A stretch of DNA of 64,000 nucleotides from Synechocystis sp. PCC 6714 (GTDB taxonomy: Bacteria > Cyanobacteriota > Cyanobacteriia > Cyanobacteriales > Microcystaceae). Below are positions 11,145-48,650 of this stretch, one piece after another (within the stretch, counting starts at the first letter, position 1; each line of letters begins with the position of its first letter). The notes under the pieces are model-generated. The model searched no databases and was not told the origin of the DNA. It saw nothing but the letters and a program-made list of their open reading frames with translations. Location: contig NZ_CP007542.1 in assembly GCF_000478825.2 (NCBI RefSeq), positions 2,294,001-2,358,000 on the forward strand, read 5' to 3'. Both the position numbers and the translations under genes were made by a program.

Positions 11145-11190
11145 TAGCTGGTGAAAATTCTGTTCCCAGAGAGAAAAACAACCAAAAATT

Positions 11191-43931: not shown

Positions 43932-44007
43932 TTTTTTTCAGGATGAGACTCAGAAGACTGCCCTGAGTTTGTAACAAAAATTGTTATTGATATACCAAAA
44001 TTTTTGC

Positions 44008-44013
44008 TATACT
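44008..44013 (+). promoter_or_regulatory. Possible -10 element of the Argonaute gene
   Basis: TATACT, with a TTGATA at 43987-43992 that is 15 bases upstream (short spacing), lies about 105 bases before the Argonaute ATG in an A/T-rich leader. No clear ribosome-binding site precedes ATG 44118. Weak evidence. Confidence 0.3.
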
Positions 44014-44117
44014 TCTGTCCTAAAGAGCATCATACGAAAAGTTTTTGCATAGTCCTTAGCTATTCTTACGGAAATGTTTTGCAAGCTCTAGTTCCATAAA
44101 ATCTTTAAACTATCAGT

Positions 44118-46313
44118 ATGAATTTATTGGCAAGGATCGAGAAGACTTCTGTTGTTTTAAATCACTTTTTTGTGAAAAATTTAGACAAGGAAGATTTATG
44201 CTTTCATGAGTATCAGTGTAAATTTTCTCAACCTCCTCAACAAGGAGATGAACAACGAGCTATTTCCAGTATTTGTTACAAGGTAGGTGTTACTGCCGTT
44301 AGATTAGGTAGTCGTATTATTACGAAGGAAGAAGTCAGTTGTGAAAAAATGAAGGGTAGTAGTTGGAAATTAGTAAAAATGAGCGATAGAGAACTAAGCT
44401 GTGAGGATAATCTTCAAAGAAAAGCTATCGAAATCTTTGAACGCAAAATACTAGAGAAACAATTAAAATATTTTAATAAGACTGCTATTGAAAAAGCAAC
44501 TGAAGGCGGATTGATTTGGTGGATAAGAGATCAACATGGTGTAGAAAAGTTTGGGAACGGATGGGAAGTACATAGGGGTAGAAAGATAGATGTTGTTATT
44601 GATTCAGATAAGAATCTGTACCTAGAGATTGACATACACCATCGATTTTATACCCCATGGACACTTCATCAATGGCTAGAGAATTACCCTGATATTCCCA
44701 TCAACTATGTCAGGAATACATACAAAGACCAAAATAATAATTACATCAGTTGGCAGTATGAAGAAGTTTCTGAACAATCACCGCAAGAAACCATAGTAGA
44801 AGGATTAGGTATTAGCCTGGCAGATTACCACCGCAATAACGGAGCTAGTGAAGAAGAAATAAGTTCTATTGTTGTGTATGTCAGACGAGCAGATAGATGG
44901 AATAGTAAAAGCGTGGCGCATTTATCTAAAAGATTGTCGCCAAGTTTAACGATGGAAATGTTAGCAAATATTTCTGAGCAGGGAAAGGATAGTAAAGAAA
45001 TCAAAGATGTTTTTGGTTTGATTAGAAAAAAATTAGATGATCGCTTGAAGGAATCTAAAGCGACGGCGAAATATATTATAAGTCAGGTTTATGGTATTCC
45101 TAGAGAAACTGAGCCTCTAAGGGTTGATGGATACGTTATGCCAAAAGCAAAATTGCTAGCACTCAACGGTCAGGAAGTAGATATAGTTGCAAAGGTCAGA
45201 TATAAAGGATGCGCTAAAATAGGAGAAACAAAATTTGGCTGTCTTAATCTTTTCAATGAAAAGCATCAATATCCCGAAGAGGTTAGTAAATGCTTATTAG
45301 ACATAGAAAAAAATAGCCATACAAAGATAAAAATAAATTCTTATCGCGCACAACAAGATTTCCCTGACAGTGAATTAGAGCAACAAATGTTTTGGCAAAA
45401 ATGGTCTGATGAGGGAATAAAAACAGTTTTAGTGGTCATGGACTGGTCGCCAAATGAACGTAAACAAAAAATCCGAGTACAGGCACTACAGGCAGGAATA
45501 GCCACTCAATTTATTGTCCCTAAGCCAAAAGCTGATCCATACAAAGCATTGAATGTTGTATTGGGACTTTTATGTAAAGCTGGGTGGCAACCTGTGCGCC
45601 TGGCGCCTTTGCAGTACGATGAAACCGCCGATTTAATTATTGGTTTTGATACTGGAACAAATCGAGAACTCTATTATGGCACTTCTGCTTTTGCAGTTCT
45701 TGCAGATGGGCAAAGCTTGGGCTGGGAGTTACCTGATATTCAAAGAGGAGAAAGCTTTTCTGGAAAAGCGATTTGGCAAACAGTATCTAAGCTAGTTCTT
45801 AAATTTCACCAAAGTTGTAAGCGTTATCCCAAGAAATTACTTCTAATGCGAGACGGATTAGTTCAAGAAGGCGAATTTCAACAAACTATAGAGGAGCTTG
45901 TCAAGAGCAATATAGCAGTGGATGTTGTTGGAGTTCGTAAAAGTGGGACAGCTAGAATGGGGCAGGAAATCATCCAAGACAATGGAGAAGTCGCATATCG
46001 TGATGCCAGAGTTGGTACTGTTATTTTTGCCCGAAAAGAAAGGTCATTCACGATAGTAACAAGTCAGCCAGTTACAGCCCAAATCGGTAGCGCAAAACCC
46101 TTACGAGTAGTTCATGAATATGGTAACACCTCTTTGGATTTGCTCGCTTTGCAAACTTATCAACTCACTCAACTGCACCCTGCTAGTGGTTTTCGGTCCT
46201 GTCGCCTACCTTGGGTGCTACATCTTGCAGACAGAAGTAGTAAGGAGTTTCAACGCCTAGGACAAATTAGTATCTTGCAAAACATCAGCCGTGAAAAACT
46301 AATTGCTGTCTAG
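44118..46313 (+). CDS. Long prokaryotic Argonaute (pAgo) with intact PIWI catalytic tetrad
   Basis: A 731-residue protein. The PIWI domain (about 500-731) shows IIGFDTGTNREL (D511), DIQRGESFSG (E545), LLLMRDGLVQEG (D579) and LPWVLHLADRSS (D705, H702 nearby). Spacings 34-34-126 match an active DEDX tetrad (34-34-114 in Thermus thermophilus Ago). The MID-like part (about 400-500) ends TQFIVPKPKADPYKALNVVLG, LLCKAGWQPVRLAP. The N-terminal 400 residues (N and PAZ-like) diverge. pAgos use short guides to bind or cut invading nucleic acid. A-rich codons contrast with neighbours, suggesting acquisition. An MNT-HEPN pair follows. Confidence 0.9.
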   Translation: MNLLARIEKTSVVLNHFFVKNLDKEDLCFHEYQCKFSQPPQQGDEQRAISSICYKVGVTAVRLGSRIITKEEVSCEKMKGSSWKLVKMSDRELSCEDNLQRKAIEIFERKILEKQLKYFNKTAIEKATEGGLIWWIRDQHGVEKFGNGWEVHRGRKIDVVIDSDKNLYLEIDIHHRFYTPWTLHQWLENYPDIPINYVRNTYKDQNNNYISWQYEEVSEQSPQETIVEGLGISLADYHRNNGASEEEISSIVVYVRRADRWNSKSVAHLSKRLSPSLTMEMLANISEQGKDSKEIKDVFGLIRKKLDDRLKESKATAKYIISQVYGIPRETEPLRVDGYVMPKAKLLALNGQEVDIVAKVRYKGCAKIGETKFGCLNLFNEKHQYPEEVSKCLLDIEKNSHTKIKINSYRAQQDFPDSELEQQMFWQKWSDEGIKTVLVVMDWSPNERKQKIRVQALQAGIATQFIVPKPKADPYKALNVVLGLLCKAGWQPVRLAPLQYDETADLIIGFDTGTNRELYYGTSAFAVLADGQSLGWELPDIQRGESFSGKAIWQTVSKLVLKFHQSCKRYPKKLLLMRDGLVQEGEFQQTIEELVKSNIAVDVVGVRKSGTARMGQEIIQDNGEVAYRDARVGTVIFARKERSFTIVTSQPVTAQIGSAKPLRVVHEYGNTSLDLLALQTYQLTQLHPASGFRSCRLPWVLHLADRSSKEFQRLGQISILQNISREKLIAV

Positions 46314-46361
46314 CAAATATACAAAAAAAGAGGAATTACAAGCCCTAGGATTAAAACTCAC

Positions 46362-46694
46362 ATGACGATTAAGGCGATCAAATTACCAATGAAAAAAATT
46401 GCTGAGTTTTGTCACAAATGGCAAGTAATAGAACTGGCTTTATTTGGGTCTGTCCTGCGTGATGACTTCCGCCTAGACAGTGACATTGATGTGATGGTGC
46501 AATTTGATCCAGATGCCCATCCCACTTTCCGTACCTTAGACCAGATGGAAGCAGAACTTAAAACCATTTTTGATCGAGATATTGACCTGATTACTCGACA
46601 GGGCATTGAAGCTAGTCGCAACTACTTACGCCGTCACGAAATTCTTTCCTCAGCCCAGGTGATTTATGCAACGGGATCTTCAATTCCTGCTTGA
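46362..46694 (+). CDS. mntA: MNT-type nucleotidyltransferase antitoxin
   Basis: A 110-residue minimal nucleotidyltransferase. The motif LFGSVLRDDFRLDSDIDVMV has the GS and the D-x-D (D41, D43) catalytic pair. MNT antitoxins neutralise the partner HEPN toxin by adding AMP units to a tyrosine. It overlaps the HEPN gene by 29 bases, the standard coupled arrangement. The symbol follows the MntA/HepT naming and is not the manganese transporter gene of the same name found later in this window. Confidence 0.88.
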   Translation: MTIKAIKLPMKKIAEFCHKWQVIELALFGSVLRDDFRLDSDIDVMVQFDPDAHPTFRTLDQMEAELKTIFDRDIDLITRQGIEASRNYLRRHEILSSAQVIYATGSSIPA

Positions 46695-47010
46695 TATGCT
46701 CCAGTCCGCAGAGCTAATCCTGACTTACACCGCTCAATGCTCAAAAGATGAGTTTGTTGCAAACGTTCAGCTTCAAGATTCAGTCATTCGGCGACTATTG
46801 GTTATTGCTGAAGCGGCAAGACGAGTTTCAGACCCTACTCGGAAGGCCTTACCGAAGGTCTCTTGGCAAGAAATCAACGGAATGCGAAATCGGTTAGTGC
46901 ATGAATATGATGATGTTAACCTCAACATTGTCTGGGATGTTCTTCAGCGGGAAATACCGTCTTTAATCGAAGAATTGAAATCTCAAATTCCTCCAGAGCC
47001 AGAGGTATAG
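46666..47010 (+). CDS. hepT: HEPN-domain RNase toxin (HepT-like)
   Basis: A 114-residue all-helical protein (DUF86 type). The catalytic motif R-x4-H-x-Y is intact: R74, H79, Y81 in MRNRLVHEYDDVN. The SVIRRLLVIAEAARRV helix is characteristic. HepT is a ribonuclease toxin; the Tyr is the target of its MNT partner. Coupled to the MNT gene upstream. It is 352 bases downstream of the Argonaute stop, so a shared defence function is possible but not shown. Confidence 0.9.
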   Translation: MQRDLQFLLDMLQSAELILTYTAQCSKDEFVANVQLQDSVIRRLLVIAEAARRVSDPTRKALPKVSWQEINGMRNRLVHEYDDVNLNIVWDVLQREIPSLIEELKSQIPPEPEV

Positions 47011-47060
47011 TCAGTGGAGGCGATCGCCAATTTTGGCTTTAATTAAAAGGGGTAATTCTC

Positions 47061-47527
47061 ATGGCCAATAAATTATATGAACAGGACTTGCAAAAATGGA
47101 TTGAGAAAACTATTGACTCACTGAAAAAACGTGAGTTTGAATCATTGGATATTGAGCATTTGATTGAGGAATTGGTGGACTTGGGTAAATCAGAAAAAAA
47201 TACACTGAAAAGTAATTTAATGATTTTGTTAGCCCATTTACTCAAGTTACAGGTTCAGTCCAATGCGCCAGAATCTATGAAGGGGAGCTGGTATAATTCA
47301 GTATTAGAATATCATCAGCGGGTTTTAAATAATTTAGCTGACACACCTTCCCTTAAAAGTTTCTTACCGGAAGCAATGGAAAAATCCTATAAAGATGCTC
47401 GAAAACTAGCTATAAGCAGGGAAAATTGGCTCGGCTTGGGGTCGGAATGCCCAATGAGAAAGAGTATCCCTTGGTTTGTCCTTTTTCCGCTGAGCAGATC
47501 CTGAATGAGGATTTTATGGGTGATTAA
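47061..47527 (+). pseudogene. DUF29 family gene with C-terminal frameshift
   Basis: Behind a good site (AAGGGG), a DUF29 protein starts MANKLYEQDLQKWIEKTIDS with FESLDIEHLIEELVDLGKSE and WYNSVLEYHQRVLNNLADTP, all typical. At the four-A run 47422-47425 the frame slips: the read frame ends in unrelated residues at 47504. One extra A restores KLARLGVGMPNEKEYPLVC and PFSAEQILNEDFMGD to a stop at 47527. That is the normal DUF29 end (P-x-x-CP-x-x). It is a recent single-base loss or a sequencing error in a homopolymer. DUF29 function is unknown. Confidence 0.8.
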
Positions 47528-47528
47528 G

Positions 47529-48650
47529 CTAAGTTTCCTGCAAGACCAAATTGTCCCGATGGATGACCGTATCTGGCCCCATATAACTCAAAACTTCGGC
47601 GATCGCCTCGGAGTGGAGCCCTTTAATCTTCTCTAGCTCGTTGGAGTTGTAGTTAACTAATCCCCGCCCTAATTCTTGGCCTTGGGGATCACAGATTACA
47701 ACAGCATCGGTGGCACTGAATTCCCCCTCCAAAGCAACAACACCGATCGCCAATAATGATTTGCCCCTAGCTTTAAGAGCTTGCACTGCCCCAGCATCAA
47801 TGAAAATTTTCCCGGTGGGCACCAAGCCATAGGCAATCCAGCGTTTGCGGGCATTATCGGAGCGGGGTTGGGGTTCAAATTGGGTGCCTAAATCGGCCCC
47901 TTCAAGAATGGCTAAAATCTGTTGGGGTTTTTGCCCATGGGTGATAACAGTGCGGACCCCTGAACCAGTGGCAATGCGAGCAGCGGTGATTTTAGTGGCC
48001 ATGCCACCGGTGCCCCAAGCTGAACCAGTACTATCGGTGCGGACCTGCAATTGGGCCAACTCCGTCGCTCTGACCAGGGCAATGGGATAGGCATCGGGGT
48101 CTAAGCGGGGATCGTTGGAATAAAGGCGGTCTACATCAGTGAGTAAAAACAACCAATCCGCTTCCACCAGGCTAGCTACCAAAGCAGAAAGGGTGTCATT
48201 GTCACCAAACTTCAATTCATCGATCGCCACCGTGTCGTTTTCATTAACGATGGCAATTACCCCTAATTCAAACAAGGCTTGGAACGTGTTGTAGGCGTTG
48301 ACGTAGGCAGTACGTTCAATCAATTCCCGTCTGGTCAGCAAAATTTGGGCAATGGGTTGTTGCAAACTACTAAATAGGTCGTCGTAGGTCCGCATTAATC
48401 GCCCCTGACCCACCGCGGCGATCGCCTGCTTAAAGGCCATTTTTTTCGGCCTTTCTGTTAGACCCAAACGACTACAACCTACCCCCACAGCTCCAGAGGA
48501 AACCAACACCACCCGATGGCCTCGGTTAATTAACTGGCACAAAGTTTCCACCAACGCCGCAATGGTGGACAGGGCTAACTGACCAGATTCAGGCCGGGCC
48601 AAGCTAGAAGTACCAATTTTAATCACCAAAGTTTGGGGTTGCATTGCCAT
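47529..48650 (-). CDS. proB: Glutamate 5-kinase
   Basis: A 373-residue enzyme, first step of proline synthesis (glutamate to gamma-glutamyl phosphate). The amino-acid kinase fold starts [14 protein letters not shown], with [39 protein letters not shown] and [15 protein letters not shown]. The C-terminal part (about 280-373) is a PUA domain ([25 protein letters not shown] onward). It stops two bases after the DUF29 remnant and is separated from psbJ by a terminator. Confidence 0.96.

Follow-up and report, generated by a model that had tools for sequence, protein, structure and literature searches.

Sequence Identity and Domain Layout

Synechocystis sp. PCC 6714 encodes an ordinary bacterial Argonaute that is probably active. 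The gene (ago) was found in a 64,000-nucleotide stretch of contig NZ_CP007542.1 (positions 2,294,001 to 2,358,000; hereafter, the window), and very probably specifies a catalytically competent, stand-alone long-A prokaryotic Argonaute (pAgo) of the SeAgo/TtAgo clade, which would act as a DNA-guided barrier to plasmids and transforming DNA. The gene, its domains, catalytic tetrad, MID motif, predicted fold and sporadic distribution were all observed, and its features are located in the window as follows.

44118-46313, + strand: long-A pAgo gene (SeAgo/TtAgo clade), 731 aa, ATG to TAG, DEDD tetrad at aa 511/545/579/705
44670-44942, + strand: PAZ domain, guide 3'-end pocket (aa 185-275; Pfam PF18309 PAZ_3, inside the range superposed on TtAgo)
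45411-45578, + strand: MID core (aa 432-487) with guide 5'-phosphate motif K449/R453/Q464/N479/K487 (KR type), from the TtAgo alignment, 26-row conservation and the motif definition of PMC6299218
45636-46310, + strand: PIWI nuclease domain (about aa 507-731, boundary approximate)
45648-45650, + strand: PIWI D511 codon
45750-45752, + strand: PIWI E545 codon
45852-45854, + strand: PIWI D579 codon
46230-46232, + strand: PIWI D705 codon

The frame contained no internal stops, and one frame of the opposite strand, when translated, was interrupted by many. Its coordinates are right, as the start (MNLLARIEKTS) agrees with that of a full-length homologue with 62% identity from genome G401 (MDLLSNLRRSS). 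Residues 7-729 matched PDB structures of Thermus thermophilus Argonaute (TtAgo) at E 5.1e-65 (phmmer), blastp to TtAgo reached 211 bits, whereas none of 200 shuffled versions exceeded 24.3 bits, and the PADLOC pAgo model PDLC02387 scored 1015 bits, with all other PADLOC models at or below 658. The Argonaute match is therefore far beyond chance, in agreement with the preliminary description of this DNA, which had proposed a long Argonaute in a Synechocystis-like chromosome.

The full N-PAZ-MID-PIWI fold of a long-A pAgo was recovered. A structure prediction, suggested earlier as a check, gave a model that superposes on TtAgo over residues 5-731, and Foldseek concurred in a search made with the whole model. 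The preliminary description had found no PAZ domain that could be placed and had considered the N-terminal part divergent and perhaps a new variant. Neither view was supported, as PAZ_3 was matched at aa 185-275 with 90.6 bits (cut-off 27; E 9.9e-26), the TtAgo alignment starts at residue 7, and residues 1-731 share 62% identity with the G401 protein. A missing PAZ or a new N-terminal architecture was rejected on the basis of the PAZ_3 match together with the TtAgo superposition.

Catalytic Tetrad and Guide-Binding Pocket

The four acidic residues D511, E545, D579 and D705, with spacings of 34, 34 and 126, each aligned with TtAgo positions 478, 512, 546 and 660, as the earlier reading of the tetrad had predicted. 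D478, E512, D546 and D660 make up the catalytic tetrad of TtAgo, and mutants at 478 and 546 occur in PDB titles. The protein thus possesses the DEDX tetrad in PIWI that is required of an active long-A pAgo. In a family alignment of 26 rows, 24 carried DEDD, one carried DEDH (L060), and one cut by a contig end (L052) showed D, E, G and no fourth letter. This alignment excluded a copy (L039, of L038), partial, broken or cut sequences (L058, L059, L061, and L062), the divergent L023-L029, and the loci L078-L088. The DEDH protein (L060, 706-2922) belongs to a metagenome-assembled genome (MAG) of Thermosynechococcus and lies on a long branch.

The MID pocket for the guide 5'-phosphate contained K449, R453, Q464, N479 and K487, a KR variant of the YKQTNK-type motif identified from the TtAgo alignment and the 26 family rows. 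The TQFIVPK...PYKALNVVLGLLCK core, attributed to MID in the preliminary description, does fall in this guide-5'-end pocket region. Section 8 of PMC6299218 names KR among the MID variants of long-A pAgos; under its strict rule (Y/H/R first), however, a K at the first position would count as MID*.

Some results weigh against the assignment of an active Argonaute. The NCBIfam argonaute equivalog scored only 20.2 of the 700 bits needed, so NCBIfam does not name the protein. A Pfam search up to E 1 gave no Piwi domain. The PIWI assignment relies on TtAgo, PADLOC and the structural model; the PIWI similarity looked for by profile was found with the PADLOC pAgo model and in the TtAgo match, and not with Pfam. 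In the structural model, the predicted local distance difference test (pLDDT) fell below 50 at aa 514-521 and 542-545, leaving the E545 loop poorly modelled, and the convergence of the four acids was judged from the TtAgo alignment alone. The rows of the family alignment had been chosen for their similarity to this protein. Moreover, no expression data for the gene were seen in the main text of the PCC 6714 transcriptome paper (PMC5386190), where the word "argonaute" does not occur.

Relatives and Distribution

Among 386 genomes of the phylum, 15 contained a match, of which eight were full-length (PCC 6714 included) and seven covered only the C-terminal MID-PIWI part; these seven divergent cyanobacterial pAgos shared 28-32% identity with the PCC 6714 protein over that part. 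A family-profile search matched 39 of 388 genomes of the class, and 25 loci, each with a cyanobacterial title, were picked up when named genome contigs were scanned with two short peptide patterns. The G401 Argonaute (735 aa) aligned end to end with residues 1-731 at 62% identity, and its genome is probably S. elongatus (Synechococcus elongatus) and the protein probably SeAgo. By similarity, the PCC 6714 protein is closer to SeAgo-type active pAgos than to other pAgos (62% to G401, 1015 against at most 658 bits, and 28-32% to the divergent pAgos). The phylogenetic tree comprised similar rows and TtAgo, without G401 or other pAgos, and is by itself no test of membership in the SeAgo clade. The closest full-length relative in the whole-genome search was from genome G086 (76% identity).

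A survey by Taton et al. (2023; PMC10653904) reports a PAZ domain and DEDX tetrad in 20 of 160 cyanobacterial long-A pAgos, with Synechocystis among the genera named. No paper on this ago gene was present among the literature matches listed for argonaute with Synechocystis or PCC 6714, and the main texts of two other papers in the set on PCC 6714, PCC 7338 and transcriptomes (PMC4060947 and PMC8155712) likewise do not contain the word "argonaute".

Several related loci were irregular. A Gloeomargaritales ago (L053, 6145-9617) was interrupted near residue 210, perhaps by an insertion, with about 1.2 kb between its two parts. A Thermosynechococcus MAG contig carried two copies (L038 and L039) about 14 kb apart that were identical over all 2178 bases compared, representing a recent duplication or an assembly artefact. 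Broken copies were present in Hyella patelloides and in an Oscillatoriaceae MAG (L061 and L062).

Proposed Mechanism

Guide type, DNA cleavage and plasmid restriction are proposed here by homology. The guides would be short (about 15-19 nt), 5'-phosphorylated DNAs derived from double-strand break processing and from stalled or terminating forks, with the 5' end anchored by the MID pocket and the 3' end by PAZ. The DEDD tetrad of PIWI, with divalent metal, would cut complementary DNA. Poorly replicating foreign plasmids would supply more guides, as proposed by Taton et al. (PMC10653904), and this would generate a barrier to plasmids and transforming DNA; the protein may likewise introduce nicks or breaks at the chromosome terminus. 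The same paper shows that SeAgo reduces natural transformation and makes RSF1010 plasmids unstable. In E. coli, SeAgo has been described as carrying small DNAs 15-19 nt long, with an enrichment for plasmid sequence and peaks at the terminus (ter) (PMC10269773). The guide-dependent anti-plasmid nuclease role that had been predicted from the sequence gains support by homology, having been published for the close homologue SeAgo (PMC10653904).

A somewhat unlikely alternative is that the main task of the protein is chromosomal, with ter-derived guides directing nicking or cutting that aids sister chromosome separation and the plasmid effect arising as a by-product. Passages of PMC10269773 describe TtAgo as targeting the terminus in its own host and helping that host under ciprofloxacin, and SeAgo and LrAgo as loading ter-derived DNAs and relieving gyrase inhibition in E. 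coli. On the other hand, deletion of ago in S. elongatus left wild-type morphology and growth (PMC10653904), and the absence of ago from four of five Synechocystis genomes implies that it is not generally needed for replication in the genus.

The proposed plasmid barrier must also be weighed against a review passage (PMC8066212) in which RSF1010 derivatives are said to replicate in PCC 6714, and this speaks against a strict exclusion of RSF1010. However, PCC 7942 and PCC 6301 are named in that passage too, although SeAgo was subsequently found to destabilise RSF1010 in their species. Exclusion in PCC 6714 would then be either incomplete or bypassed, in the way that ago mutants emerged under selection in S. 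elongatus (PMC10653904). There is also a small chance that RSF1010-type plasmids are tolerated by the PCC 6714 Argonaute, which would instead police other DNA or the chromosome terminus. It would then be a SeAgo relative with a different self/non-self discrimination, perhaps because guide processing follows another route in a host whose plasmids carry three CRISPR loci.

Neighbouring Genes

Three genes follow ago on the same strand, the last of which adjoins proB.

46362-46694, + strand: MNT nucleotidyltransferase, GSx10DxD intact
46666-47010, + strand: HEPN protein, Rx4HxY intact
47061-47504, + strand: DUF29 gene

The MNT and HEPN genes (46362-47010), whose frames overlap by 29 bases, form a toxin-antitoxin pair of the HepT-MntA type (type VII), with NCBIfam scores below the cut-off. 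It is very improbable that Argonaute, this pair and the DUF29 protein constitute one defence cassette, for example as a trigger of abortive infection. Such a cassette would accord with the shared strand, the 48 nt from the ago stop to the MNT start, the intact motifs of both proteins, and the lack of a terminator-like site between ago and MNT in a consensus scan. That scan gave four promoter-like and no terminator-like sites, and the means of shuffled sequences were higher (9.4 and 2.8). Against it, no blastp relative (E 1e-3) of MNT or HEPN was present among the open reading frames (ORFs) of 30 other ago loci, several of them shortened by contig ends, and HEPN relatives occurred in all five Synechocystis genomes, including the four without ago. 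Conserved co-localisation of ago with HEPN-MNT was not found at these loci, and a DUF29 relative was detected at one of the 30 (L050, blastp). The neighbour of proB in the congeners was a DUF29-like gene in G004 (judged by eye) and a different gene in G001 and G003, so that the position beside proB appears to be a variable site.

Partner genes were sought by blastp clustering of ORFs of at least 70 aa across 31 loci including the window, several truncated by contig ends, a procedure that misses diverged or very short partners. Apart from ago, no cluster extended beyond five of the 31 loci, and most of the clusters listed came from the three related genomes of L064-L066, where they reflect shared synteny. 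A conserved partner gene, Cas4 in particular, was rejected on this count. The PCC 6714 genome itself contained one Cas4 match above the cut-off, in a 574-aa frame on contig C3, which was taken from inspection of the DNA for the Cas4-Cas1 fusion of a CRISPR locus, unconfirmed by any profile; a second match on contig C1 was under the cut-off. Because MNT and HEPN lack blastp relatives at the 30 other loci and no cluster exceeds 5/31, the Argonaute is taken to be a stand-alone gene. In the G086 lineage, a 554-aa frame directly downstream of ago (L063, 9525-11189) had no Pfam family at E 0.1 and is a possible partner there.

That the gene is decayed or inactive and was retained by chance after transfer is highly unlikely: broken copies do occur in relatives (L053, L061, and L062), but here the frame is full-length, the tetrad and MID pocket are intact, and the protein agrees end to end with that of G401.

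Probable Horizontal Acquisition

The stand-alone ago gene was probably acquired horizontally, as judged from its distribution, composition and phylogeny. The presence/absence comparison proposed for the genus found ago in one of five Synechocystis genomes (PCC 6714), and in the phylum sample it was absent from all 13 other genomes of the family. When the DNA from 43950 to 47520 was compared with the four congeners, all matches were partial (66-82% identity) and confined to the MNT/HEPN/DUF29 portion, leaving ago unmatched. Homology with the congener stretches compared ends by 43939 on the left and resumes at 47529 on the right. The GC content of ago is 38.3%, with 29.6% at third codon positions (GC3), compared with 48.5% GC for the window and a GC3 of 48.5-59.7% for the eight surrounding genes. 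In the tree, which omitted the incomplete L052 and L053, the protein (P0001) grouped with a Thermosynechococcus MAG, G086 and UBA999 (support 91/90). pAgos are held to spread horizontally, according to passages of PMC6299218 and PMC10653904.

Several features of these comparisons limit the case for transfer. Support at the node that connects P0001 with its closest rows is moderate (91/90). The branch of TtAgo is very long and comes together with another long one, row L054, and both support thresholds are passed by 11 of the 22 inner branches. Furthermore, Dxs is 79% identical between PCC 6714 (G000) and G086, so the 76% ago identity to G086 is not an excess of similarity.

Candidate marks and vehicles of transfer were also considered and rejected. 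Only short imperfect repeats were present at the ends of the stretch, the sole tRNA of the window lies at 11190, and neither a target-site duplication nor a tRNA was found there. No clean, exact empty site could be demonstrated in the congeners: G001, G003 and G004 carry both the radical-SAM gene and proB, but the two are not adjacent, and a search of G002 gave no proB. Viral carriage found no backing, as no relative was detected in viral contigs scanned with two short peptide patterns only. A match was present in 38 plasmid records, 27 of them from Thermus, all with less than 60% identity.

Comparison with Known Argonautes

The PCC 6714 protein resembles SeAgo of S. elongatus PCC 7942/6301 (presumably the G401 protein) in its 62% identity over residues 1-731 and in its tetrad and MID residues. 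It differs in genomic surroundings and in a host that carries three plasmid-borne CRISPR-cas loci (PMC4118070). TtAgo is a full-length homologue with about 29-30% identity, the same fold (predicted here) and the same tetrad, but it is plasmid-borne, belongs to a thermophile, and starts its MID motif with R and K, where the present protein has K and R. CbAgo, CpAgo and KmAgo are more distant, with 17-18% identity over the superposition and a best sequence stretch within MID-PIWI only.

The gene belongs to an already known kind: Synechocystis had been named before as a genus with such an Argonaute, and this SeAgo-like protein adds no new kind of system. It offers a solid instance of a cyanobacterial Argonaute predicted to be active, from a relative of the model Synechocystis PCC 6803. 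With its SeAgo homologue, PCC 6714, an established laboratory strain, would allow transformation efficiency, RSF1010 stability and chromosome effects to be compared with those in S. elongatus.
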